Assembly: GCF_017581925.1 (NCBI RefSeq)
Contig: NZ_JAGEVG010000007.1
Location: 1 to 64,000, forward strand
Length of the DNA stretch: 64,000 nucleotides
Origin: Gelidibacter pelagius
GTDB lineage: Bacteria; Bacteroidota; Bacteroidia; Flavobacteriales; Flavobacteriaceae
Direction of reading: 5' to 3'
Part shown: in pieces, positions 8,487 to 20,270 of the stretch
How the letters are laid out: each line of letters begins with the position of its first letter
Position numbering within the stretch: the stretch's first letter is position 1
Notes under the pieces: model-generated
The model's database searches: none
Seen by the model: only the letters and a program-made list of their open reading frames with translations
What the model was told of the DNA's origin: nothing
Translations under genes and position numbers: made by a program

Positions 8487-9272
8487 CTACTTATACCAGT
8501 CTAATTGAACAATTTCGATGTCAGGATTTGATTTATTAACAATGGACCTAAACTTATCAACATCACTCATTCCGTCAGTACCTCTATAGTGATAAGGATA
8601 TACGTTTTTCGGCTTAAAATCCAGTACTGCACTTGCTGCACTCTCAACGGGCATCGTATATGGCAGGTTCATACAAATAAAGGCGATGTCAATATTCTTT
8701 AGATTCCTCATTTCTGAAATGTCTTCCGTATCACCAGATATATAAACTCTTTGATCGCTCCACGTTAAAACATATCCATTGCCTCTCCCTTTTTCATGAT
8801 ATTTCAAGGCCTCTTCCCTTAAGTTGTACATCGGGATGGCTTCAATAGAGAAGACGTCAAGGTCCAAGGTTTCGCCATTGTTCATAACGATAACTTCTTT
8901 GGCTTTTAGTGCGGGCAACTGTTCTTTCACTGTTTGTGGGACAATGAGCGTCGTAGAATCCAATGCCATACGTTCTAAAGTAGAGGGATCCAAATGATCC
9001 CCATGAATATCGGTGATCAAAATATAATCTGGTTGTTCCTGACCAGAAAATGCTTCAATACCACCAACTGGATCTACATAAACGATCTGGTCTTCGTATG
9101 CTAAGACCATTGTAGCATGACTTATTGGAATGATTTTAATTTCTTCCGGTTTATTCGACTCGAATAACTCATTCGCCGACTCTGAGGCTATTTCTACGAC
9201 TTTTTCCGTACTGTTTTTGCAGTTGAACAATAGCACTATAAATACTGATGTTATAAGACTTGAGTGTTTCAT
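8487..9272 (-). CDS. MBL-fold metallo-hydrolase, lipoprotein (UlaG-like)
   Basis: A 261-aa protein with a lipoprotein signal: hydrophobic MKHSSLITSVFIVLLFNC with a lipobox Cys at about residue 18, so probably membrane-anchored in the envelope. The metallo-beta-lactamase motif is TDIHGDHLD, and later ligands appear in YISGDTED and near the YPYHYRGTDG end. It belongs to the L-ascorbate-6-phosphate lactonase-like (UlaG) branch often annotated only as MBL hydrolase. Substrate unknown. It is divergent from the coiled-coil protein gene. Confidence 0.83.
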   Translation of the reverse strand: MKHSSLITSVFIVLLFNCKNSTEKVVEIASESANELFESNKPEEIKIIPISHATMVLAYEDQIVYVDPVGGIEAFSGQEQPDYILITDIHGDHLDPSTLERMALDSTTLIVPQTVKEQLPALKAKEVIVMNNGETLDLDVFSIEAIPMYNLREEALKYHEKGRGNGYVLTWSDQRVYISGDTEDISEMRNLKNIDIAFICMNLPYTMPVESAASAVLDFKPKNVYPYHYRGTDGMSDVDKFRSIVNKSNPDIEIVQLDWYK

Positions 9273-9446: not shown

Positions 9447-10796
9447 ATGTCTGATGATTTTGATTTATTAGAAACCAATTCTAACGAGAAAACTGGTAAA
9501 GTGGATGTCAATTGGGGTAAAGCCATTGACACCATGAAATCTAAGTTAGCCCAGGAGGACGATCCGCAGTCCCGTCAAAAAATCCTGAACGCCACGCTCG
9601 ATGATGTGGTGCACATGGCAGAAAAAGACAGAACAACGCTTTTGGATGCCATCAAGGACCTTACCGATTATCAGGATGAAGTGGGAATTATCTTTGAAAA
9701 GTTCTCCTCTCTCAATCCTGATGAGCAACGCGTCATTGACGATGCCCAGAAAGCATTGGAACGCGCTCGTATTGAGTTGGAAGATGCACGTAATAAACCG
9801 GATACCTGGTGGAATAACCTTTGGGGACGAAAAAGCAAGATCAAACAAGAAGAGCAAGAGTTTAAGGAGGCCGAGAAAGTTAGGGCAGGTGCAGATAACA
9901 AAGCAAAAGCCATGTTCCAGGAGCGCATTGAAAGCGCCGATGTACAAACCCTTTTAAGTGAATTGTCTTTTAAAAGTCAAGCCGCGGTATCCCGTTTAAA
10001 AAACAGGGAGGTTGAAATTAAAGAGGTGGAAGACAAGCTTCAAATTGCCATTGTTGAAGCTACTAAAAATCACACTCGAGCTTTAGAAAAGAAGAAAGAA
10101 GTAGAAGCAAAGCTCGATGATAACTACGCATTGTTAAGACAGGCCCGTCAGGAATTGGACGAGATTGTCGACAAGCAATCGGCAGATTACGCCCAGTCTG
10201 TAGGTAACGTCACTACTTTAGAGCAAAAAATAGAAGAATTGGAAGGTCTTAAAAATGCCTATACCACTTTGGCCGCGAGTAAAGATAGTTTTGTGCATAA
10301 ACACAACCTGACCATTAAAGTATTGACATCTTTACGAAGCAACTTACAAACGCATCGCGCTAAATTAAAGAGCGATACCGAAGAGCGTCTTAAATATTAT
10401 GATGGTTATGTCGTGGCACTTAAAGCGCGAACAGATCAGGAGTTTGCAGCTATATTAGAACATTTGGGGGTCAAGACCGATGAGCATATTGGAGAAACTT
10501 TAGCGTCAATGCATACTGCAAGTGCCAAAGCACGTCAGGAAATGATGGAAAATATCCCCGTACACGAAAAAGTGATGCAAGGGGTCTACAGCAGTTACGC
10601 TGAAGCTTTACAGGAAATCCGTACCAAAGATGCCGATATCCAAAAGAATTTCGCTGAGCGTTACGGTATCGACATGAAAGAGATCTTTGAAGATTACTAT
10701 AAAGCTGATGCTACCAAGCCTTCAGGGAATGACAATGCAGGAAAACCTGCAGCAGCACCAAAACCAGAAACTAATAGCGACGATCTATTGTCCTGA
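9447..10796 (+). CDS. long coiled-coil protein, first gene of the AAA locus
   Basis: A 449-aa soluble protein, highly charged and predicted helical almost throughout, with long coiled-coil stretches (about residues 95-160, 180-260 and 290-420). A tryptophan cluster, DTWWNNLWGRKSK, sits near residue 120. The C-terminus is a Pro/Ala/Asn-rich linker ending DDLLS. There is no signal peptide or membrane helix. A TAATTTTG (-7-like) at 9372-9379 is a possible promoter. It begins a one-direction block with an AAA ATPase and membrane proteins. I cannot assign a function; TelA-like or filament-like roles are speculation. Confidence 0.8.
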   Translation: MSDDFDLLETNSNEKTGKVDVNWGKAIDTMKSKLAQEDDPQSRQKILNATLDDVVHMAEKDRTTLLDAIKDLTDYQDEVGIIFEKFSSLNPDEQRVIDDAQKALERARIELEDARNKPDTWWNNLWGRKSKIKQEEQEFKEAEKVRAGADNKAKAMFQERIESADVQTLLSELSFKSQAAVSRLKNREVEIKEVEDKLQIAIVEATKNHTRALEKKKEVEAKLDDNYALLRQARQELDEIVDKQSADYAQSVGNVTTLEQKIEELEGLKNAYTTLAASKDSFVHKHNLTIKVLTSLRSNLQTHRAKLKSDTEERLKYYDGYVVALKARTDQEFAAILEHLGVKTDEHIGETLASMHTASAKARQEMMENIPVHEKVMQGVYSSYAEALQEIRTKDADIQKNFAERYGIDMKEIFEDYYKADATKPSGNDNAGKPAAAPKPETNSDDLLS

Positions 10797-10812
10797 TAAA
10801 AAGATGCCGACT

Positions 10813-10857
10813 GACCTGAAAGGTTTTCAAAACCTGTCAGGTCTTTTGAGTTTTTTT
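10813..10857. terminator. inverted repeat with T tract after the coiled-coil gene
   Basis: GACCTGA (10813-10819) pairs with TCAGGTC (10837-10843) around the inner palindrome AGGTTTTCAAAACCT, followed by TTTT and a second T7 run. It starts 17 bp after the stop. It could act as a terminator but also looks like a dispersed palindrome of the kind common in this phylum. Confidence 0.6.
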
Positions 10858-10858
10858 G

Positions 10859-10980
10859 TTCATGGCGTTCCCACGCGAAAAGCGTGGTCAGGTTTTCCGC
10901 TGTATCTTTTTTGTTTGAAGATTTCGACAAGCTCAACCTCTAAACAAAAAAGGATGCCGCTGCAACCCTTAACGCGTGTT
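10859..10980. repeat. composite repeat-like element with two hairpins
   Basis: About 120 bp of non-coding DNA containing the hairpin CCACGC-GAAAA-GCGTGG (10871-10887) and a second inverted pair, CTTTTTTGTTT (10906-10916) against AAACAAAAAAG (10942-10952), around GATTTCGACAAGCTCAACC. The structure resembles dispersed intergenic repeats of flavobacteria. Only one copy is present here, so the repeat status is inferred. Confidence 0.4.
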
Positions 10981-11042
10981 TAGGTAACAACTAGATTAGG
11001 AATCATTCATAATTTTTCATCATTAATTTTTAACTAGAAAAA

Positions 11043-12104
11043 GTGTCCATCAATCACATCGTAACACCATTAGATTCTGCATATCTCGACTCCAAGGAGC
11101 AGTATGTGTTTTATCATAAAATGGTCGATTTTGCGCTCAAGGAATTAATTGTGAGTGCACAACGTGAAAACTTGTGTACTACTCAGGAACTCATTTTTTT
11201 TAAACAATATGCAGATTTGCTATTGTATTCTATTGAAGCCATGCGGGTCAAGTACATGTATGACGAAGAAGAGAATATGAAAGTCGATTTGACCGAATCT
11301 GGTTTTCCAAATTATTTGGAATTCCGCTATTTGTTCAATGATTTATCATTAAAGGAAAATTATGTCAACAAGCTCAAAGATGTGAGTGAGTTACAGGAAG
11401 AGTTTTTAGATACTTTGCTCCGAAAGAAAGAACCTATTAAAAAAAGCCGATTGTTTCAGGCGGCCTCCATTGTCTATTACACATCAGTGGAACAGAAATT
11501 TATTTTTAATCGTTTTGTACAAGGGAAAATCATAAAGGCACCAGAAGATTCTGCAGCTGAGTTTATGACCAGCTGGAGTTTTTTTGACGTAGGTTGCAAC
11601 CGACCTTTTGTTTGTTATATGTACTTTGATTTTGAAGGTACTAATATTGAAGCCAATAAAACTCAAATCTATGAGGTGCTCAAAAACACCGCAGATCGTG
11701 AAATGAACTTAGACGTCATGGCCTATGGTATTGATCGGAAATTGAAGGATATCAAGCCCAAGCACATCAAACGCATCGATTTGGGGCCGTTCCATAATGT
11801 ATTTGCCAAGGACGAAAACCAAATCACCCATGCTATTTTAAAGAATATTGCAGATAAAGTTGTGCCTTTGGAAAGCTATGCACTCTCCTTAAGCGTTGAC
11901 GAAGTACTCTCAGGTAGCGAATTTAGCGAAGGTGGCTATTTCTCAAAACAAACCTTGCAGAAATGGAATGACCCCATTCATAAAAGTTATGTCTTGGCAC
12001 CACATCGCATCATTCAGTTATTGTACAGTAAAACGCCGGAAATCATGAATAAGTTGGCAAAACCACCGATTCAGATAGCAGATTTGAAAATAAGTAAAGT
12101 TTAA
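11043..12104 (+). CDS. conserved-looking protein of unknown function (353 aa)
   Basis: A soluble 353-aa mixed alpha/beta protein without signal peptide, membrane helix or recognised motif. The N-terminal half is helical (KEQYVFYHKMVDFALKEL, FFKQYADLLLYSIEAM). The C-terminal half has strand-like segments (RPFVCYMYFDFEG, HIKRIDLGPFHNVFA) and ends with a helical LLYSKTPEIMNKLAKPP region. The start is GTG: an in-frame stop lies at 11031-11033 and no ATG occurs before residue 27. Its position between the coiled-coil gene and the AAA ATPase gene suggests a shared process. Confidence 0.75.
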   Translation: MSINHIVTPLDSAYLDSKEQYVFYHKMVDFALKELIVSAQRENLCTTQELIFFKQYADLLLYSIEAMRVKYMYDEEENMKVDLTESGFPNYLEFRYLFNDLSLKENYVNKLKDVSELQEEFLDTLLRKKEPIKKSRLFQAASIVYYTSVEQKFIFNRFVQGKIIKAPEDSAAEFMTSWSFFDVGCNRPFVCYMYFDFEGTNIEANKTQIYEVLKNTADREMNLDVMAYGIDRKLKDIKPKHIKRIDLGPFHNVFAKDENQITHAILKNIADKVVPLESYALSLSVDEVLSGSEFSEGGYFSKQTLQKWNDPIHKSYVLAPHRIIQLLYSKTPEIMNKLAKPPIQIADLKISKV

Positions 12105-12256
12105 AAATAGAATAAAGATCGCTGCGCTTATAGAATCAAGAATCGAGACTTTTAATTGTGAAGAATTGGAAGTTTTTTTAAATAAACGGAGAAAAATTTC
12201 TTCCCTATTTAAGGGAAGGCGGATTAAATTCCCGTAAGGGAATTGAAGTAAGTTAT

Positions 12257-12291
12257 CAGTCGGCAGTCGGCAGTTGGCAGTCGGCAGTTAG
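12257..12291 (+). repeat. heptanucleotide tandem array CAGTnGG x5
   Basis: Five head-to-tail 7-bp units: CAGTCGG, CAGTCGG, CAGTTGG, CAGTCGG, CAGTTAG. It lies 48 bp before the four-helix-bundle gene. A related array in the opposite orientation (12719-12753) lies on the other side of that gene. Two short palindromes (CTTCCCT-n-AGGGAAG and TTCCC-n-GGGAA, about 12201-12244) precede it. Confidence 0.85.
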
Positions 12292-12339
12292 CTGAATATT
12301 TCAAATTAATTTATAAACAGAGTACTGAAGATTACAGAA

Positions 12340-12704
12340 ATGAGTTTTAAAAAGTTATTGGCATATCAGAAAGGATTTGATTTAGAGATGGATATTTTTC
12401 ACCTAACAAAAGAGTTTCCTAAATCTGAGCAATTTTTGTTGACTTCGCAAATGGTTAGATCAAGTCGAGCTGTGTGTTCTGCAATTGCTGAAGCTTATCG
12501 AAAACGTCAATATGAAAAACATTTTAAAAGTAAATTGTCAGATGCTGATAGTGAAAATTCAGAAACTCAATTGTGGTTAGACTTTGCCTTGGCTTGTCAT
12601 TACATCGATGATAAAAAAGAGAAAAGCTACAGCTAAAAAGTGAAGAAATCGGAAGACTCTTAAACTATATGATTAACAATCCTGATAAGTTTGGATTAAA
12701 ATAA
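12340..12704 (+). pseudogene. four-helix-bundle protein (S23/IVS-like), frameshifted
   Basis: The N-terminal 92 codons match the small four-helix-bundle family related to the ORFs in 23S rRNA intervening sequences: FKKLLAYQKGFDL, EFPKSEQFLLTSQMVRSSRA, AIAEAYRKRQYEKHF, DSENSETQLWLDFALAC. The frame stops early after KEKSYS at 12634-12636. Adding one base near the A-run at 12622-12625 restores a typical family end (LQLKSEEIGRLLNYMINNP then DKFGLK) stopping at 12702-12704. So the gene carries a one-base deletion, or there is a sequencing error in the homopolymer. The family is often found in variable intergenic sites. Confidence 0.75.
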
Positions 12705-12718
12705 TAAAGGCACTCCAC

Positions 12719-12753
12719 GACTGAAGACTGAAGACTGCCAACTGAGGACTAAA
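12719..12753 (-). repeat. heptanucleotide array (GACTGnn type), inverse of the CAGT array
   Basis: Five 7-bp units on the plus strand: GACTGAA, GACTGAA, GACTGCC, AACTGAG, GACTAAA. Read on the minus strand they contain CAGTC, matching the array at 12257-12291 in inverted orientation. The array ends four bases before the ATG of the AAA ATPase gene, so it forms that gene's leader. Confidence 0.8.
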
Positions 12754-12757
12754 AAAT

Positions 12758-14716
12758 ATGCAACAAAACTCAACATTCCCCATAAAACAAAATGACCTCG
12801 ATATGCTTCGTGATGAAGCAGCATCGTATCTTAAAAGTATCCAATGGGAACAAGGGCAACGTGCCAAAAACAAAGATAAAGATGCTAAAGACGATTCCAT
12901 TCTTCTTTATCTTTCCAGAGCCAATAACGGCTCTAATATGGCAGAAACCACGTCGGTGTCCAAAACTATTCTGGAACTTAAAAAGCGTTTGCTTCCCGAT
13001 TCAATTGCCATTCCAGTATTACTTAACCAAACCTTGTATGCCGTTCAGGAAGGTTTGACCTTAGGTATTTGGATCAAGGACAGTTATTATGATGCTTCAG
13101 GATTGTCCAGTTTAAATGAGCGCAAAGCCTCATTGGACAGCATGGGCAAGAGAGAGTATGAAAGTAAAATGCATACTGCAACAGCCTTCATGTTGTTTTC
13201 AGCGGCCTATAATATTTTGCACAATCTAAAACCTTATGCATCTGACGATTTGAGCGTTATGAAGCAAAAATTTGCAGGCATTCCCGAAGTTTCGTTTTTG
13301 TCGCCTTTAAAAGGGGTGGCCTGTACCTTGTTTTATTATGACAAATATTTGGGACATCCTGATATTATCAAAAGTGATAAGGATGTGGCCGATTTCACAG
13401 TGGTCTTCTTTGAAGCATTGATTGATGAAATCCAAATGCGAAAAGCCACGTTGGAATATCAGGAAACCATTGTGGACAGAACTTACAAGTTGGAGCATTC
13501 CGAATTTGCGATTTCTGGATGGAACAACGTTTTTGCCGGTGCTGCCAAGAGTGTAGAATTCAACAAAATTAAGTTTGAGCAGATTGTCGGAAACAAAGAT
13601 GCCAAACATTTTGCACGCCGATTGACCGAACGTATGTTGAGTTATGATTTTACCGCCAAAAAGAATCCGTTTCAGGAATTGGGCGGATTTATGCCAGTTT
13701 TTATGGGCTACGGTATACCTGGAACAGGAAAAAGTATGCTCATTGCGGCTATCGCCACAAAATTAAAGGAACATTGCGACCATCTGGAGATTCCGTTTCT
13801 ATTCCATCCAATGCCTGATACTTTGATTTCAACATTTCAAGGCGGTTCTGCCGAAAAAATGGTGGAATGGATGAAGCCTATGCAAGATCCATCAAAATTG
13901 ATTTTCGCACCAATTGATGATGCTGAAAACAACTTGCAAGAACGAACTGCACAAGGTGTTTCTGCAGGTGTTAAAGAAGTAATTGGAGTGTTTTTAAGAT
14001 ATACAGAAGGCGCTTATGCGGTGAATTACGGCAATAGTTCCATAGGATTATTCACTAATTTACCAGAGATGCTGGATAAAGCTGTGATTTCGCGAGTGCA
14101 AGGTCGATTCAAAATCGATGGCGCCAGAACCGAACATGACTTTTTGGATCAAGATCATATATGGTGGCGCAAGTTGGAGAAAACGATGCCGGATTTCATA
14201 AACATGAAAGATCCAAATCATTATAACTATCTCCAAGATCAAGGTTTGGCGAAGAATATGGGAGAGATTTTAAGCGCAGTCGACAAGCCATCAGAAGAAC
14301 GCGTCCATGCTGTTTATGATCAGGTTGAAAAACAGTTTCAAACCAATGAACATCAGTTTTACGCCAATCTATATAAGGAAATTCAAAAAGTTTTCCCGTT
14401 CTTTTCCTCAAGGGATGTTCGGAATATACAATCGGCCATATCATTACGATTAACCGATTTTGATTTGGAACCCTCATGGTTTGATAATCCCGAAATCTAT
14501 TTTAAACAGCCTTATGAGACCAAATTCAACATGCTGCAGGAATTGATGCGCGCCAATATGAAAGGCCTTAATTTTTCTGAAATAAGACGTCAGGAAGTCG
14601 TGCGTTATTTGGATAACGTGGCTACAATTGCTGACACCGATTTCAAACGACAAGTCGATTCAAGAGTCAATCAACTTAACATTGAATTGGAAGCACGAAA
14701 GAAGTTTGAAAAGTAG
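12758..14716 (+). CDS. AAA ATPase, classical-type, with a large N-terminal domain
   Basis: A 652-aa soluble ATPase. Residues 1-300 are an unrecognised helical domain. The AAA module follows: Walker A GIPGTGKS (residues 319-326), Walker B LIFAPIDDAEN (residues 381-391; D387 D388 where DE is usual), then TNLPEMLDKAVISRVQGRF, which fits the second region of homology (TNRPE..LDpAllRR..GRFD) with sensor Asn and candidate arginine fingers. Residues about 480-652 are helical. No membrane helix or protease motif is present. Such ATPases usually form hexamers that remodel protein complexes. Neighbours (coiled-coil and membrane proteins) are possible substrates; that is inference. Confidence 0.85.
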   Translation: MQQNSTFPIKQNDLDMLRDEAASYLKSIQWEQGQRAKNKDKDAKDDSILLYLSRANNGSNMAETTSVSKTILELKKRLLPDSIAIPVLLNQTLYAVQEGLTLGIWIKDSYYDASGLSSLNERKASLDSMGKREYESKMHTATAFMLFSAAYNILHNLKPYASDDLSVMKQKFAGIPEVSFLSPLKGVACTLFYYDKYLGHPDIIKSDKDVADFTVVFFEALIDEIQMRKATLEYQETIVDRTYKLEHSEFAISGWNNVFAGAAKSVEFNKIKFEQIVGNKDAKHFARRLTERMLSYDFTAKKNPFQELGGFMPVFMGYGIPGTGKSMLIAAIATKLKEHCDHLEIPFLFHPMPDTLISTFQGGSAEKMVEWMKPMQDPSKLIFAPIDDAENNLQERTAQGVSAGVKEVIGVFLRYTEGAYAVNYGNSSIGLFTNLPEMLDKAVISRVQGRFKIDGARTEHDFLDQDHIWWRKLEKTMPDFINMKDPNHYNYLQDQGLAKNMGEILSAVDKPSEERVHAVYDQVEKQFQTNEHQFYANLYKEIQKVFPFFSSRDVRNIQSAISLRLTDFDLEPSWFDNPEIYFKQPYETKFNMLQELMRANMKGLNFSEIRRQEVVRYLDNVATIADTDFKRQVDSRVNQLNIELEARKKFEK

Positions 14717-14765
14717 AGAATAGATTAGAGAAAATAGACTAAAGAATAATCTAACTTAGAGACAA

Positions 14766-14823
14766 GCCTGCCCGTCCACTTGCCCGAAACTTTTGTAGAG
14801 GCGGGTAGCATTTGCGGAGGAGG
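14766..14823 (+). repeat. 59-bp interspersed repeat, copy 1
   Basis: The segment starts GCCTGCCCGTCC, continues CCCGAAACTTTT and TAGAGG, and ends TTTGCGGAGG. The same sequence in opposite orientation with only a few differences lies at 31272-31330. It sits in the gap between the AAA gene and the NUDIX gene. Confidence 0.8.
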
Positions 14824-14827
14824 AAAA

Positions 14828-14854
14828 CAAGAAACAAGAAACAAGAACAAGAAA
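14828..14854 (+). repeat. CAAGAAA heptad array (short)
   Basis: Four units, CAAGAAA, CAAGAAA, CAAGAA, CAAGAAA (one has lost a base), ending seven bases before the NUDIX start codon. It is the same unit as the longer array at 16129-16177. Confidence 0.8.
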
Positions 14855-14861
14855 AATTTCA

Positions 14862-15446
14862 ATGTCAAACAACATAAAAAACATCGCCATTAAAACACTT
14901 TCCAAAGCTTGGGCTACTTTATTGGAGATCAATTATGATTACCAGTTCAAAGATGGCACATGGAAACACGTTTCCAGAGAAAGTTATGATCGTGGGCATG
15001 GCACCGGAATTTTATTATACAATGTTGATAAGGGCACTATTATTTTGACTAAACAATTCCGAATGCCAATTTATCATACCAATAAAGATGAAGCGATGTC
15101 CATTGAAATCTGTGCTGGAGCCATAGACGATAATGATTTGCCAGAATCCACAATAATTAGAGAAGTGGAAGAGGAAGTTGGATATAAAGTTAAAGACGTT
15201 AAAAAGATAATGGAAACGTACATGTCACCTGGCGCCTTAACCGAAAAGATGTATTTGTTTGTGGCGCCGTATTCAGAAGACATGAAGGTCAATGAAGGGG
15301 GTGGTGTTGCCAGTGAGGATGAGGAAATTGAAGTTATGGAGCTGCCATTTTCGAAAGCTTTAGAAATGATGGCATCTGGAGAAATTCAGGACGCCAAAAC
15401 TATTATTTTATTGCAGTATGCGCAAATTCACAATATATTTAAATAA
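14862..15446 (+). CDS. NUDIX hydrolase, GDP-mannose pyrophosphatase NudK-like
   Basis: A 194-aa cytoplasmic hydrolase of nucleoside-diphosphate-linked compounds. The NUDIX box begins at GAIDDNDLPES and ends REVEEEVGY (about residues 86-108). It keeps the RExxEE core, but the first conserved Glu is Asp. YMSPGALTEKMYLFVAPY is the typical C-terminal block of the ADP-ribose / GDP-mannose group. It is followed after 8 bp by a membrane-protein gene, so they are one transcript. GDP-sugar turnover is likely but the exact substrate is not readable. Confidence 0.85.
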   Translation: MSNNIKNIAIKTLSKAWATLLEINYDYQFKDGTWKHVSRESYDRGHGTGILLYNVDKGTIILTKQFRMPIYHTNKDEAMSIEICAGAIDDNDLPESTIIREVEEEVGYKVKDVKKIMETYMSPGALTEKMYLFVAPYSEDMKVNEGGGVASEDEEIEVMELPFSKALEMMASGEIQDAKTIILLQYAQIHNIFK

Positions 15447-15454
15447 TTGTCATA

Positions 15455-16084
15455 ATGACAGAAGGAGAGATAATAACTGAAAGTAACACCAATAAGGTTC
15501 TTGCGTTGCAGGATTACCTTTCAATTGGGTACATCTTTTTATTGATTCTTGGAATTTTCCATGAAACGATTTATTATAAGTTTATAGGAGTCAATATTTT
15601 GGATTACTCCTCTATTTTGGATGTTCTAATTAGTCCAATTTCAGTGATGTTTGGAAATTTAGTATTAGGATTTACTGTGGTGGTGTCAGTGTTTCTATCG
15701 TATTGGTACTTGAAAGTAATTCCCAAATATTACCACTGGTTGGGAACTAAAAAGCGCTATCAACAGGGTAAAAGAAAAGAAAAATTAGAGAAAGGAGTTG
15801 CAAGACTTAAAAGTAAAAACGGTGCTCTTATGTTCATTTGTTTTTTTGTGTTTTCTTTGTTTATTGGGTTAGCAATCGGAAGTGGAAACAAGACAAACGA
15901 TAGAATTCAAAATGACGATTTCAAACTGACACATCTTCTACTTTTTAAGGATGGTGAACAACAAGAAATAAAAATGTTGGGTAAGAATAGCCTATACGTG
16001 TTTTATGTTATAAAAGGAAAAGATGAAGTTTCGATTGCACCTATTGATGGAAATATAAAGTTGATAAAGAAGTTAAAAGAATAA
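15455..16084 (+). CDS. membrane protein of unknown function (209 aa)
   Basis: A 209-aa protein with about three to four hydrophobic helices (residues 20-37, 53-95 and 125-143), a basic cytoplasmic-type loop KKRYQQGKRKEKLEKGVARLK between them, and a soluble C-terminal domain of about 60 residues (THLLLFKDGEQQEIKML ...). I recognise no family. It starts 8 bp after the NUDIX gene. The C-terminal LRVFYVI/KLIKKLKE-type strands suggest a small folded sensor or anchor domain, which is speculative. Confidence 0.7.
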   Translation: MTEGEIITESNTNKVLALQDYLSIGYIFLLILGIFHETIYYKFIGVNILDYSSILDVLISPISVMFGNLVLGFTVVVSVFLSYWYLKVIPKYYHWLGTKKRYQQGKRKEKLEKGVARLKSKNGALMFICFFVFSLFIGLAIGSGNKTNDRIQNDDFKLTHLLLFKDGEQQEIKMLGKNSLYVFYVIKGKDEVSIAPIDGNIKLIKKLKE

Positions 16085-16128
16085 ACCCGCCAGTCGACTG
16101 GCAGTGAATAAAGAATAATTTTTTCACT

Positions 16129-16195
16129 CAAGAAACAAGAAACAAGAAACAAGAAACAAGAAACAAGAAACAAGAGATTCCCACTTTCGTGGGAA
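16129..16195 (+). repeat. CAAGAAA heptad array x7 plus a terminal palindrome
   Basis: Six perfect CAAGAAA units and one CAAGAGA (16129-16177), then the palindrome TTCCCAC-TTTC-GTGGGAA (16178-16195), which ends six bases before the ATG at 16202. A 14-bp perfect palindrome, GCCAGTCGACTGGC (16089-16102), lies just upstream. Array length could vary by slippage and alter the leader of the downstream gene. Confidence 0.9.
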
Positions 16196-16201
16196 GTAAA
16201 C

Positions 16202-17437
16202 ATGGAAAAACTAAAAGAAGCTCAATTATTTAGAAACGATCTCATCCCAATCAGTGGGAAATTGGTAGAGCGTTATAATCAGTGCCTGAAAATTTTAGGG
16301 TTAACTGAAACCTCTCTTACAAGTTTTTCAATCGATGGTTTAGGTTGGAGTCCTGAAATCGCAGAAGAAAAAAAAGAAATCCATTATCTGAATAATGGTG
16401 AAGCCAATCCCAATGCCATTATCATTACGCCGTTTCAAAAAGGAAAGCCGGTATATATGCCTTTTCATACCTTTGACCGGGAGATGATGCAGCTGATTTT
16501 CAAGACGCATGGTGATCAGATAAATGATATTACAAGGGATTGTGCTATTTGTGTTGATTTTGATCAATATATTGATGCTTTTTATGAACCCTTGGACGTT
16601 CTGAAATATAAGGATATTTCCATTAGCTTTAAATTGATCAATAATCTTGATAAAGTACAAAAACAGCAGTTTGAGTTGATCGATACGTTTAAACAAGAGC
16701 ATAATTTTATTGATGAAAATCTTCACCAACGAATACTGGATTCTGCAAAAACTTATGGCGATTTAAGACACAGGAATTTAGAGCTTAAAGAGCTTTATTT
16801 TTCAACGGATTCCTTTTACACAAAAGCTTTTGGAGGTGTGTATGTCTTGCGTGATTTTATCACGCCAATTGTGGTGTTCGAAGATGAAAAATGGCATAAG
16901 GAAGCCATTAAAGACACCTCTCACGACGTATTGATTTACCACATTTCACAACCTGAATTGTTAGAAAAGTTGCGCGACCATCTGATTATTGAATATGATT
17001 TGGATGAAGTAGTTAAGACCGCACGTTATGAACGAATCAAAAAATTCATGTTCTCCACGTTTTTAAAAAACACTCAACATCCTATAAAAGATATTTTGGA
17101 TGATAAAGTATTGTTCAAAGGGTACTTGAACAAATTGCCCATTGAAGATCGGAAAAAGGTGATGAGTGTTGAATTGTACCTTGAAAAGATGGAAGTCAGC
17201 AATCAATATAAATTGGCCGATATAGTTGATGTGGAACTCTTTGAAGCTTTACAACAACCACATTCGTCTCTAAATGCAAAGCATCAAGATTTAATATGGA
17301 GATTACTGGTGAATATTTCGTCTTTGGATGTATTATTCCTGTATTGGTACGACAAAGAACAGTTTTATAACAACTATAAAGAGTGGGATGATTCGTTGAA
17401 AGATTGGGTAATTGCGACGATTCGTAACAATATATAA
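16202..17437 (+). CDS. conserved-looking protein of unknown function (411 aa)
   Basis: A soluble 411-aa protein without signal peptide or membrane helices. The N-terminus reads LFRNDLIPISGKLVERYNQC, the centre has KAFGGVYVLRDFITPIVVFEDEKWHKEA, and the C-terminus is helical and rich in aromatic residues (LFLYWYDKEQFYNNYKEWDDSLKDW). No catalytic motif is evident. Bacteroidota genomes encode similar proteins described only as domains of unknown function, but I cannot name one with certainty. Its leader carries the CAAGAAA array and palindrome. It is probably part of the AAA locus by position and strand. Confidence 0.72.
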   Translation: MEKLKEAQLFRNDLIPISGKLVERYNQCLKILGLTETSLTSFSIDGLGWSPEIAEEKKEIHYLNNGEANPNAIIITPFQKGKPVYMPFHTFDREMMQLIFKTHGDQINDITRDCAICVDFDQYIDAFYEPLDVLKYKDISISFKLINNLDKVQKQQFELIDTFKQEHNFIDENLHQRILDSAKTYGDLRHRNLELKELYFSTDSFYTKAFGGVYVLRDFITPIVVFEDEKWHKEAIKDTSHDVLIYHISQPELLEKLRDHLIIEYDLDEVVKTARYERIKKFMFSTFLKNTQHPIKDILDDKVLFKGYLNKLPIEDRKKVMSVELYLEKMEVSNQYKLADIVDVELFEALQQPHSSLNAKHQDLIWRLLVNISSLDVLFLYWYDKEQFYNNYKEWDDSLKDWVIATIRNNI

Positions 17438-17851
17438 ATTTTTTAGACTAATTTTAAAGGAGATGTATAGATACAAGTTTTCTTTTGATGTTCATTGAAT
17501 TTGTCGAATTGACTTTGGATTAAATCAGAGAGAAAGTCCTTTAGAAGAAGAATAAATCAACCACCTCGTCTTCATCCCGTTTTCTCGGGATGAATCCACT
17601 CCTCCTTCAAAGGAGGAGAAGTTTTGATTCTTCTTAAGATATTAGTTTGAGAAATTTTGAAATAATGATCATTGAAAAAATTCCTTCCCTTGAGAGGGAA
17701 GGTGGATTTTGGCTCGGTAAAGAGCCTAAAGACGGAAGAGTTTATTTGTAATGATATCAATACAATCAAAATGGATATCAACGAATTCTTCATCGCTATG
17801 AAAGTATAACACTTCTTCTTTGGAAGGAGCTTAATTTATAAAAACAAAAAA
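17438..17851. other. intergenic region with three palindromes
   Basis: 414 bp without a credible gene. It holds TTCATCCCG-n6-CGGGATGAA (17571-17594), CTCCTCCTT-CA-AAGGAGGAG (17599-17618) and CCTTCCCT-TGAG-AGGGAAGG (about 17683-17702). These look like dispersed palindromes rather than one terminator. A minus-strand frame here translates to low-information repeat peptide and is not called. Confidence 0.65.
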
Positions 17852-18376
17852 ATGACCTTAGAGATTATCGTTTTCATCGGCTCAATTTTATTCGGAATCC
17901 TCCTATATTGGAGAGAATCTACAGGTAACGGAATGTATCGCTTTTTCAATAAAATGATGTATTCCAAAAAACTCCAAATGTCGCCCAATGACCCAACAGG
18001 TTTTCTGTATCAGCAAAAATTCATTTTGCGTTTGGTGTTTATAGCCATGATTTTTCTGGTTGGGATTTTAATCGCGCGCTTTTTGATTCCGATCGATATT
18101 GCTACTATCTCCGTGTTTGCCTCAAGTATTGTCGGAACACTTTTGGGAACTTATATCGGAGGATTTATTTTAAAATCTGAAAAAGTCATTGATGAACATA
18201 GTGATACTTTAGAAGAAAAGTTTGATCATGCCATTGAGCAGAGCAAGGATTTTGTCAAGGATATCACTTCAAGAGAACCAAAAGTGGTGGAAGAAGCCAA
18301 AAAAGAAATTGAAGAAGAACCACAACCACCAAAAAAGAGCGCAAGAGAGCGATTGAAGGATAAGGGGTTGATGTAA
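17852..18376 (+). CDS. two-to-three-helix membrane protein with a charged tail (174 aa)
   Basis: A 174-aa protein with hydrophobic helices at about residues 3-20, 58-80 and 86-110 and a long charged cytoplasmic-type tail (residues 115-174; DEHSDTLEEKFDHAIEQSKD, then an EEEPQPPKKSARERL segment). The tail is predicted helical and acidic, then proline/lysine-rich, a shape suited to binding a partner. The next gene in the same direction is the large 564-aa membrane protein. No family recognised. Confidence 0.72.
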   Translation: MTLEIIVFIGSILFGILLYWRESTGNGMYRFFNKMMYSKKLQMSPNDPTGFLYQQKFILRLVFIAMIFLVGILIARFLIPIDIATISVFASSIVGTLLGTYIGGFILKSEKVIDEHSDTLEEKFDHAIEQSKDFVKDITSREPKVVEEAKKEIEEEPQPPKKSARERLKDKGLM

Positions 18377-18380
18377 ATTG

Positions 18381-18499
18381 GATTTACGATTTACGACCCG
18401 CCCGAATGTACCTTTTCGGTACGGGCGGGTTGTTGATTTACGATTTACCATTTACGATTGTTGATTGATGATTAACGATTGTTGATTGATTTGATTAAC
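18381..18499 (+). repeat. GATTnnn heptad array interrupted by a 35-bp palindrome
   Basis: Two GATTTAC units (18381-18394), then a palindrome ACCCGCCCG...CGGGCGGGT with inner GTACC/GGTAC (18396-18430), then eight more 7-bp units from 18435 to 18490 (GATTTAC x2, CATTTAC, GATTGTT, GATTGAT, GATTAAC, GATTGTT, GATTGAT) and a trailing GATTAAC. The four-base GATT core is fixed and the other three bases vary. Confidence 0.85.
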
Positions 18500-18518
18500 A
18501 CTTCATTTTCCTCTTAAC

Positions 18519-18567
18519 AACGGATAACGGATAACGGACAACGGACAGACAACACACAACACACAAC
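18519..18567 (+). repeat. heptad array changing from AACGGAy to ACACAAC
   Basis: Seven 7-bp units: AACGGAT x2, AACGGAC x2, AGACAAC, ACACAAC x2. It ends nine bases before the ATG of the 564-aa membrane protein. The unit sequence drifts along the array but the 7-bp register is kept. Confidence 0.85.
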
Positions 18568-18575
18568 AGAACATC

Positions 18576-20270
18576 ATGATAAAGAACTATTGGAATAGAG
18601 GACGAAGACAAAAAACCATCACAATCATTAGTGCTTTGGTTTTAATAATTTTATTGTTTTTCCTTCGGGATGACTACCAACCTTTTTTATTGTTCCTTAG
18701 AAAATACATTTTTGTAATCCTCTTGATCGGTTTGGTATTGTTTTTTGGACTGCGAACGTTTAGAAATGCAGTAGGTGTGGGGCGCCGTTTAGGAGTTTTG
18801 GTACTCTTGACTGTGCTTTTCGGATTACTTTATTTTATTGGTTGGCATTTTAAAATGTATGATTATATGAAAACTTATAATGTTTTCAATCATTTGAATA
18901 GAGTTGAAATCAACCAACTGCCATTGACACAAAACGAACGCATCCAACCTTTGCGCAATATTTTTTCTATGGCCAATGAATCGGTTGGTGAAACAAAAGA
19001 CGTGTCTTTGCCTCATTTGGTTAGGGTAGATGGTGAAAACAAATGGACTATGGCCATCCAACCTTCCGAAAAATACACCATGCAGCAAATTAGCGAAAAT
19101 ACTGAAGAGATTTTCTCTGTTTCCAGCACCTCACCATTTCCAAGGTTTTCTAATGAAAATCGTATTCCTGTGACTTTTTCAATAGGCGAGTCCTTAAAGT
19201 TCAGTCGTAATACATATAACGCTGTGGTGCAACGTTTCAATATTTTTCAGTTGTTCACCATGGAGCCAGGAGATACATTTTATATGAAAAACGACTCTGG
19301 AAATTGGGTAGAAGTGGTCAGTTTGATCAAATGGAAAGGTTTCTTTTTCCCCTATCCAACTTTTGGGGGCGTGATGATCATTGACAGTGGTAAACACAAT
19401 TTCAATGATTATTTAGAGCGCGTATTGATTGGAAAGGGTACCTATATCAGTCCGGAAGAAATGAAAAACCATCCGTTTTTGACCAAACAAAATACCTTAT
19501 CAGAAAACGTATCGCGTTTGCAAGCCGAATCTTTAAAGTTCTTGGGAGGATTCACAGATCCTTTGCCATGGAAAATGCAAACGGCAGTAAAAATTCCAGA
19601 AATGCCGGATGATCAAAATGAACAACCTTTTGTAACAGATTTTAATTTTGATGATGTTGATACTAAAGCTTATAGTGGTTTGTACCATTGGTTTGGATTG
19701 GAGCCTATTGGAGAAGAACGCACAAGTTTGACCTATAGCGTTTTTGTTCCGGCAGATGGTACGGATAAACTCTATTATTATGATCATGCCGCCAAAAAGC
19801 AAGGTTATGCAGGAGTATCTGCCATGCCATTGAAAATTATTGAATCGCGTAAGGAATACGATTGGTCAGTTAATAAACCTGTGGAGTTCAGACCTTATAT
19901 TAAAGATATTGCCGGACGTAGAAGGATGTTTTTCTTAGGGACGGTATCGGCGGTAAAGGCCGATTCACAAAAGTTTGACGGTTCAGCAACTCCTGATTTG
20001 GCTTTGATTGACAGTGAATATCGCAATGTGATCTGGATTGATGTGAAACATCCGAGTCAATGGGACAAAACCGTGTACGATGAATTGAACGAAGCTTGGA
20101 GAGCGAGTGAAGGGATTGGTTATTATTTTAATGAAACAACAGAGCCATCAGACTTAGATATTAAAAGAGCAATAGATTCGATCCAATCAATTCCTAAAGT
20201 CAATGCCAATGCAGATGAAATTGAAAAATTACAGCGTGCGATTGATTCTTTAAAATCGGTTGGGAACTAA
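18576..20270 (+). CDS. large membrane-anchored protein of unknown function (564 aa)
   Basis: A 564-aa protein with three N-terminal hydrophobic helices (about residues 14-30, 42-60 and 72-90) followed by a single domain of about 470 residues, probably periplasmic by the positive-inside pattern. The domain is strand-rich and aromatic: TMEPGDTFYMKNDSGNW, WKGFFFPYPTFGGVMIIDSG, LYHWFGLEPIGEERTSLTYSVF, YIKDIAGRRRMFFLGTVSAV. It ends in a short coiled coil (EIEKLQRAIDSLKSVG). No enzyme motif recognised. It is the last gene of the one-direction AAA block and could be the envelope partner of the cytoplasmic ATPase; that is inference. Confidence 0.75.
   Translation: MIKNYWNRGRRQKTITIISALVLIILLFFLRDDYQPFLLFLRKYIFVILLIGLVLFFGLRTFRNAVGVGRRLGVLVLLTVLFGLLYFIGWHFKMYDYMKTYNVFNHLNRVEINQLPLTQNERIQPLRNIFSMANESVGETKDVSLPHLVRVDGENKWTMAIQPSEKYTMQQISENTEEIFSVSSTSPFPRFSNENRIPVTFSIGESLKFSRNTYNAVVQRFNIFQLFTMEPGDTFYMKNDSGNWVEVVSLIKWKGFFFPYPTFGGVMIIDSGKHNFNDYLERVLIGKGTYISPEEMKNHPFLTKQNTLSENVSRLQAESLKFLGGFTDPLPWKMQTAVKIPEMPDDQNEQPFVTDFNFDDVDTKAYSGLYHWFGLEPIGEERTSLTYSVFVPADGTDKLYYYDHAAKKQGYAGVSAMPLKIIESRKEYDWSVNKPVEFRPYIKDIAGRRRMFFLGTVSAVKADSQKFDGSATPDLALIDSEYRNVIWIDVKHPSQWDKTVYDELNEAWRASEGIGYYFNETTEPSDLDIKRAIDSIQSIPKVNANADEIEKLQRAIDSLKSVGN

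Follow-up and report, generated by a model that had tools for sequence, protein, structure and literature searches.

Genes for a classical AAA ATPase, a coiled-coil protein and several membrane proteins stand together on one strand of a Gelidibacter pelagius contig, which raises the question of whether their products work together and, if so, on what. The block lies in the first 64,000 nucleotides of contig NZ_JAGEVG010000007.1 (the window), where the initial annotation had described eight ORFs as a functional unit. Our ORF listing of the window recovered all eight at the lengths given there, all on the plus strand between positions 9447 and 20270, together with a ninth gene that had been missed, a 98-aa ORF at 12340..12636 (+) of the 23S_rRNA_IVP / four-helix-bundle family (PF05635, 89.6 bits against a cut-off of 33.8), henceforth referred to as the IVP ORF.

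A six-gene unit in Bacteroidota

Six of the nine genes, all on the plus strand, make up what we call the core. These encode the 449-aa coiled-coil protein cc (9447..10796); the 353-aa protein p353 (11043..12104, with a GTG start and an uncertain start codon); the 652-aa AAA ATPase (12758..14716); a soluble 411-aa DUF6638 protein (16202..17437); the small 174-aa membrane protein tm174 (17852..18376); and the 564-aa protein p564 (18576..20270). The other three are passengers: the IVP ORF, a 194-aa NUDIX hydrolase of the YffH/AdpP type (14862..15446, +) and a 209-aa membrane protein (15455..16084, +). The assignments of the AAA protein (PF00004, 36.9 bits against a cut-off of 21.2) and of the NUDIX hydrolase (TIGR00052, 159.7 bits against 79.55) agreed with the initial annotation; the latter protein also scored 197.3 against the NudK equivalog model, under its cut-off of 234. 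Of the nine proteins tested, only those of 174, 209 and 564 aa showed membrane-type hydropathy segments. Among the six core proteins, matches to named families were limited to the AAA protein and the DUF6638 protein (PF20343, 109 bits against a cut-off of 27). Relatives of the IVP ORF are 118–128 aa long and match the window in two frames, and the frame is disrupted near its 3' end relative to them.

The intergenic gaps, in gene order and including the IVP ORF, measure 246, 235, 121, 145, 8, 117, 414 and 199 bases, and so spread beyond the 100–400 bp first reported; with the IVP ORF left out, 653 bases separate p353 from the AAA gene. A scan of the window saw 48 promoter-like sites (35.7 expected, sd 7.4) and 16 terminator-like sites (7.6 expected, sd 2.5), and was kept out of any operon claim. 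Two plus-strand terminator-like stems lie at 17599–17702, between the DUF6638 gene and tm174.

To describe the block beyond the window we used the best 80 of at least 342 AAA loci, being those closest to the window's AAA, so that the AAA gene is present by construction. All six core genes were found in 78 of these 80 loci, in identical order and strand in 78 of 78, and the two incomplete loci are contig ends; gene by gene, cc was present in 79, p353 in 79, DUF6638 in 80, tm174 in 79 and p564 in 78. The passengers were found less often, with NUDIX in 59 of the loci (58 placements between AAA and DUF6638), the IVP gene in 20 and the 209-aa membrane protein in 6. The proposed functional unit thus stands for the six core genes, and does not extend to the NUDIX, 209-aa and IVP proteins. 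Recurrent neighbours in the 80 stretches are an ABC-F protein (60) and a protein that we call p294 (56).

The initial annotation had looked to the togetherness of these genes across genomes, and a survey of 295 Bacteroidia genomes agreed with the locus counts. The five families covered (full-length AAA, p353, p564, cc and DUF6638) occurred in the identical 8 of 295 genomes and nowhere else (E ≤ 0.001), each in single copy and never alone. Of the eight positive genomes other than the window's own, six supplied rows to the profiles, as did the own genome, and these hits therefore follow from the way the profiles were built; the absences do not. In a second draw, 296 genomes from the phylum were searched with PF20343 and four were positive, all from the window's own family. 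Two of the four were new, and were scored on PF20343 alone.

Loci outside the flavobacteria carried all six core genes in six of six cases, with tm174 recognized in all six at the same position through weak profile matches (E 0.002 to 8e-9 over a small set of ORFs). At 27 of 30 junctions in these loci the genes overlap or lie 18 bases or fewer apart, and the flanking genes vary. Gaps between core genes in flavobacteria are often wide (medians 62–619 bases), and we therefore do not take a single transcript as given for this group. A mirror-tree comparison of 46 loci gave distance correlations of 0.61–0.78 between core genes, but was not discriminating because the neighbour gene p294 correlates as well (0.59–0.80). 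By the locus and genome counts, Bacteroidota inherit cc, p353, AAA, DUF6638, tm174 and p564 as one set.

Four of the genes in Proteobacteria

The genes for cc, p353, AAA and DUF6638 are also present, with their order kept, in Rhizobiaceae and Vibrio. Ten proteobacterial records were found, and the six loci examined all contained the four soluble genes and none contained tm174 or p564, both of which are so far known from Bacteroidota only. Profile-profile comparison of the proteobacterial and Bacteroidota families gave probabilities of 98.5% for cc, 99.9% for p353 and 100% for DUF6638; a 100% match between the profile of all cc proteins and that of the proteobacterial ones was circular and was set aside. 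The DUF6638 protein of S. meliloti scores 256 bits against PF20343, and the AAA proteins of Vibrio and S. meliloti score 50 and 41.8, respectively, against PF00004. These four genes are thus inherited together in Rhizobiaceae and Vibrio as well.

The initial annotation had staked its reading on the ATPase not being regularly found without the coiled-coil and membrane genes, which holds in Bacteroidota, whereas the six proteobacterial loci examined lack the membrane pair. Because these loci do without tm174 and p564, we regard the soluble four as an ancient core and the envelope part as a lineage-specific layer, and a membrane role would not be intrinsic to the core. In S. meliloti a DUF2333 gene comes after the four-gene core. 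A relationship of p564 to DUF2333 (PF10095) was not supported (hhalign, 0.4%), and passages of PMC5256989 place DUF2333 in a T6SS locus, which is uninformative for this block.

Properties of the core proteins

The AAA protein contains a single AAA domain (residues ~318–453), before which lie some 300 N-terminal residues that match no family. Twelve of twelve aligned sequences have a Walker A motif of the form GxxGxGK[ST] (GIPGTGKS in the window copy), a Walker B motif ending in IDD, a sensor-1 [TS]N (TN in the window copy) and, in the second region of homology, a pair of arginines spaced four apart. The second aspartate of this Walker B motif occupies the position of the catalytic glutamate that is usual in most AAA proteins. 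The nearest solved chains to the domain are VCP-like/Cdc48 proteins (E 7.5e-11), proteasome ATPases and Vps4 (E 5.7e-7 and weaker), and a Bacteroidota-only AAA profile matched no solved chain at E ≤ 0.01. As judged by these motifs, the protein is predicted to be an active hexameric enzyme of the Cdc48/Vps4/proteasome-ATPase clade, with aspartate in place of the catalytic glutamate. The best sequence matches of its AAA domain are to Cdc48/VCP-like and proteasome-activating ATPases, from which it differs in having one AAA domain and an unrelated long N-terminal part.

The coiled coil first ascribed to cc was borne out over residues 60–410, where hydrophobicity has a period of 3.5 at a power that 0.2% of 500 shuffles equalled; stretches 1–60, 262–345 and 345–410 taken singly do not attain the 5% level. 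With mean conservation of 0.907, cc matches the AAA protein (0.910) and exceeds the other four core proteins (0.71–0.85); residues 271–390 (0.96–1.00) are on par with the AAA catalytic region. Both ends bear acidic-leucine motifs, DDFDLLE at the N end and DDLLS at the C end, each found in 77 of 79 flavobacterial copies and, in looser form, in 12 of 12 aligned rows. None of four proteobacterial rows has them, so they cannot be a universal docking site for the AAA protein. The best match of cc to a solved structure by sequence was to the coil region of 8qox (E 0.0079).

The soluble protein p353 is helical towards its N terminus, with an alpha/beta domain occupying the C-terminal part from approximately residue 157, and matched nothing in Pfam or NCBIfam at E ≤ 0.1. 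Its AlphaFold2 model (pLDDT 75.2, pTM 0.74) gave 263 Foldseek matches in the PDB at E ≤ 10 and none at E ≤ 0.001, and VIA-align reached a best Z of 4.9, with urate oxidases over the C-terminal part, a value of a size that the tool describes as common, and none of 5 or more. The modelled p353 may perhaps represent a new fold, of which a missing PDB match is no proof. Compared by sequence with solved structures, p353, DUF6638 and p564 gave weak, coil-type or chance-level matches only. PHROGs matches were limited to generic AAA-domain ones for the ATPase (best phrog_3757) and to the IVP ORF. A literature search returned no paper naming DUF6638, and none for DUF6384.

The charged tail of tm174 ends in ARERLKDKG in the window and in DWR[KE]G[VI] in other families, and the tail motif is present in 72 of 79 copies. 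The p564 protein has three N-terminal membrane segments within residues 11–94, followed by a large domain that, by the positive-inside rule, would be periplasmic; its AlphaFold2 model was unusable (pLDDT 49.1).

A candidate membrane-associated remodelling machine

Taken together, the products of the six genes probably form a single machine, not described before, that sits at the inner membrane. We infer both the action of the AAA protein on cc and the envelope role. In our leading reading, to which we give a little less than an even chance, the machine would lie on the cytosolic face of the inner membrane, where the AAA hexamer would pull on or disassemble a cc oligomer, engaging either the conserved C-terminal third of cc or its acidic-leucine ends. 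The p353 and DUF6638 proteins would be dedicated partners, acting as adaptor or scaffold, while tm174, by way of the conserved tip of its cytosolic tail, and p564, which has three spans and a large domain that is probably periplasmic, would hold the Bacteroidota assembly at the inner membrane and link it to the cell envelope.

In outline this would resemble the action of Vps4 on ESCRT-III (in archaea CdvC/CdvB), with a coiled-coil partner of no detectable kinship. The AAA domain is of the same clade, and its gene stands beside one for a coiled-coil protein whose short end motifs are conserved. Pfam searches at E ≤ 0.1 or 0.05, which a diverged MIT domain could escape, found no MIT domain in the AAA protein, and its Walker B motif ends in DD in 12 of 12 sequences; at the level of sequence, cc gave no Pfam Snf7 match; and against the CdvC equivalog model the ATPase scores 17.3 bits, where the cut-off is 650. 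We know of no counterpart of p353 or DUF6638 in Vps4/ESCRT-III systems. A bolder form of this reading, plausible but on balance doubtful, is that of an ancient machine of Bacteroidota and Proteobacteria in which an AAA protein with a DD Walker B would remodel a new family of coiled-coil filaments, with p353 and DUF6638 as obligate partners and membrane anchors particular to each lineage: for Bacteroidota tm174 and p564, and for Rhizobiaceae possibly DUF2333. Such a machine would follow an ESCRT-like principle that arose apart from PspA/ESCRT-III.

Of the alternatives, the one that survives best, although we consider it unlikely, is that the ATPase serves as an assembly or activation chaperone, with a MoxR-, CbbX- or Bcs1-like outline, for p564 or another client, and that cc is a scaffold or regulator rather than a substrate. 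The presence of p564 in all eight positive genomes and the conservation of its probable extracytoplasmic part (mean 0.845) are consistent with a client, and p353 and DUF6638 could be clients or adaptors. However, p564 cannot be a universal client because it is absent, like tm174, from the six proteobacterial loci where cc stays, and the AAA domain has its nearest kin in the Cdc48/Rpt/Vps4 clade rather than in MoxR.

We give a smaller chance to a diverged PSP/ESCRT-III or TelA-type stress system, with cc as a remote homologue of PspA, Snf7 or TelA. The locus plan, a Vps4/Cdc48-clade AAA protein beside coiled-coil and membrane proteins, fits such a system, and passages of PMC11237479 describe comparable PSP neighbourhoods with AAA+ proteins, including an extra coiled-coil gene in Bacteroidetes. 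There, PspA pairs with a protein of two AAA domains or with an archaeal-type VPS4, not with this gene set. Profiles argue against the kinship: PspA gave at most 4.6% by hhalign, with reversed-sequence controls of up to 5.8%, a result that speaks to sequence similarity only. TelA (PF05816), which is of similar size, also coiled-coil, and was suspected by eye from the proteobacterial copies, gave 0.1%, again at the level of sequence. No Pfam Snf7, PspA or TelA match was found for cc from five loci, and TelA itself is present in four genomes out of 80 from the phylum, while the genome that holds the window lacks it.

A conflict system, whether anti-phage or of another kind, with the AAA protein as sensor or motor and a membrane effector, appears improbable. 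The patchy distribution (8 of 295 genomes) would suit it, as would weak PADLOC matches of the AAA domain to IetA (E 1.6e-5), NUDIX to PDC-S07 (E 2e-5), tm174 to a 2TM effector model (E 6e-4, 17.6 bits) and cc to JetC (E 0.005). The IetA match, however, covers the AAA domain only, with the NCBIfam IteA model at 15 bits against a cut-off of 510, and none of ten chosen flanking proteins from six loci had a PADLOC match at E ≤ 0.001. No relative was found among IMG/VR candidates or phage records; relatives occurred in 10 of 72,556 plasmid records, all predicted non-mobilizable. The recurring ABC-F and p294 neighbours (60 and 56 of 80) are also unlike those of a mobile island. Finally, mere co-location of separate genes adjoining by chance, which the window's gaps of 8–414 bases and intervening passengers might suggest, is very improbable given the same order in 78 of 78 loci, the same 8 of 295 genomes and the ordered four genes of Proteobacteria.

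If the remodelling reading is true, bacteria would own, in addition to PspA/ESCRT-III, a second membrane machine of AAA and coiled-coil proteins that evolved separately, and at least two protein families without a known function would gain a process. Whatever the mechanism, five families that are present or absent together are a clean target, in that one four- or six-gene deletion would remove the system, and the core shared with Sinorhizobium makes the system testable in a laboratory organism.

Gene content of the block and its closest relatives

The initial annotation had placed eight ORFs in the block, and our ORF calls found them where it described them: six genes that we treat as the core, encoding a 449-aa coiled-coil protein (cc), a 353-aa protein (p353), the AAA ATPase, DUF6638, a 174-aa membrane protein (tm174) and p564, together with a NUDIX hydrolase and a 209-aa membrane protein (tm209). 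The list had left out a ninth, a 98-aa ORF (12340-12636) between the p353 and AAA genes that matches the 23S_rRNA_IVP family and is related by profile to the Avd protein of DGRs. Relatives match the window's ORF in two frames, so its reading frame seems to be broken towards the 3' end. ORFs of this type occupy two different block junctions in relatives (12 and 3 placements). Upstream, a divergent gene for a metallo-beta-lactamase-fold protein (8487-9272; PF13483), found in 27 of the 80 best relatives, is outside the unit.

The window's AAA is the only copy in its genome, and the nearest copies, at 93-98% identity, are from Gelidibacter, so that the window most likely comes from this genus or a close neighbour. 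A genome-wide scan for this protein returned at least 342 relatives, and we kept the best 80 loci for counting, almost all flavobacterial by name (L058 and L064 are labelled only 'Bacteroidia bacterium'). Scored by tblastn (E<=1e-4), AAA and DUF6638 were present in all 80, cc, p353 and tm174 in 79 each and p564 in 78, as against 59 for NUDIX, 20 for the IVP-type ORF and 6 for tm209. All six core genes were found in 78 loci, in identical order and strand; in the two incomplete loci, L066 and L114, the stretch stops inside the block. As these loci are the closest relatives of the window's AAA they are not independent, and we therefore examined more distant genomes.

Conservation across Bacteroidia

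Full-length relatives of the window's AAA occurred in 8 of 295 Bacteroidia genomes, and 19 further genomes among the 295 gave partial matches only (E 2.5e-5 to 9.6e-4). Profile searches for p353, p564, cc and DUF6638 in an equal draw found each protein in eight genomes, the same eight as for the AAA and one copy apiece, with none elsewhere in that draw at E<=0.001. These eight represent seven genera and five families in the taxonomic coding of the genome set. The profiles were built with rows from the window's own genome and from six of the other seven positives, which makes detection in those genomes automatic; no such circularity affects the result that the remaining genomes hold no lone member.

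Six loci (L029-L034) come from outside Flavobacteriaceae. In each of them the complete core is laid out in succession on one strand, and 27 of the 30 junctions overlap or span at most 18 bases. The exceptions are p353-AAA in L030 (128 bases), cc-p353 in L031 (101 bases) and p353-AAA in L032 (646 bases, containing a 208-aa ORF at L032:10510-11136). Assignment of tm174 at these loci rests on weak profile matches within a small ORF set (E 0.0021 to 7.7e-9) as well as on position, hydrophobic start and tail motif. Eight of ten flanking proteins fall in a Pfam family and two have no match; these flanks are unrelated household genes that vary from locus to locus. A single transcript is likely for this ancestral layout, a claim that does not extend to the window's block.

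Median gaps in flavobacteria are 196, 112.5, 618.5, 61.5 and 93 bases, and the AAA-DUF6638 gap is mostly occupied by NUDIX. This junction (window 14717-16201; 713-9839 in L028, a relative's locus) is an insertion hot spot: it carries NUDIX and tm209, L028 adds a 1490-aa protein and several further ORFs, and in Sinorhizobium meliloti it holds an IS element together with a gene for an endonuclease-domain protein. Tandem AAGAAACAAG-type repeats lie immediately 5' of the window's DUF6638 gene (16130-16190), and the DUF6638-tm174 junction (17590-17710) contains inverted repeats with terminator-like stems, resembling REP-type intergenic repeats.

A four-gene core in Proteobacteria

Relatives of the AAA were present in 10 of 72,556 plasmid records (four Sinorhizobium, four Vibrio, one Shinella and one Rhizobium), and DUF6638 relatives were found in those same ten. 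Each of the six records examined has cc, p353, AAA and DUF6638 on a single strand with the gene order unchanged, and our profiles match all four (for cc, E 2.8e-10 to 7.6e-16). Profile-profile comparison between the two phyla gave 100% for AAA and DUF6638, 99.9% for p353 and 98.5% for cc. Neither tm174 nor p564 had a match at E<1 in the six loci, which makes the soluble four the older core. The loss of p564 also weakens the proposal that the AAA serves as its chaperone.

DUF6638 is followed in S. meliloti by a membrane-type DUF2333 protein (L123:14145-15368; 58.7 bits, cut-off 22), and similar ORFs come next by position in Shinella and in Sinorhizobium M103. Considered as a p564 relative, this protein was rejected as unrelated by profile comparison; it is possibly a membrane partner of the proteobacterial core. 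The next gene is mfd in Vibrio and a sigma-70 gene in Rhizobium leguminosarum.

Core proteins and a proposed remodelling function

The AAA has a single domain, with Walker A, an IDD Walker B, the sensor-1 Asn and the SRH arginines in 12 of 12 sequences. With proteobacterial rows included, its profile matched solved structures of a VCP-like ATPase (7.5e-11) and Vps4 (5.7e-7), and also proteasome ATPases, Cdc48, Pch2 and katanin; a profile of Bacteroidota rows only matched no solved structure at E<=0.01. Taken overall, cc shows the periodicity of a coiled coil. Among flavobacteria its residues 271-390 have a conservation of 0.96-1.00, on a par with the catalytic strip of the AAA (0.97-1.00), and they include an L..DT..R...Y signature retained as far as Vibrio. 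Of the 79 flavobacterial copies of cc, 77 have an acidic-leucine motif at the N-terminus and 77 at the C-terminus, and all 12 Bacteroidota rows show a looser version; these motifs were not found in proteobacterial cc. The C-terminus of tm174 reads ARERLKDKG-like in 72 of 79 copies and DWR[KE]G[VI] in all six others. In p564, three membrane segments precede a large C-terminal part that would lie outside, given the N-in topology suggested by charge. The predicted p353 model (pLDDT 75.2) has a C-terminal alpha/beta domain with no confident match among known folds.

DUF6638 is a Pfam family without assigned function. In the full text searched, which misses most subscription journals, we found neither DUF6638 by name nor, in work on PSP/Snf7/AAA or AAA and coiled-coil neighbourhoods, this gene set, which may possibly be described elsewhere. 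Of the texts searched, PMC11237479 comes nearest.

A role for the block as a defence system is weakened by its stable neighbours and by PADLOC matches that are no more than weak. Profile comparison, at the level of sequence, likewise speaks against a hidden PSP/TelA relative. The list of parts agrees with a probable role in the ATP-driven remodelling of a coiled-coil assembly beneath the membrane: an AAA of the remodelling clade, a highly conserved cc, two obligate soluble partners and, in Bacteroidota, a pair of membrane proteins whose cytosolic tips are conserved. In such a machine, gene linkage, clade and conservation suggest that the AAA would act on cc.
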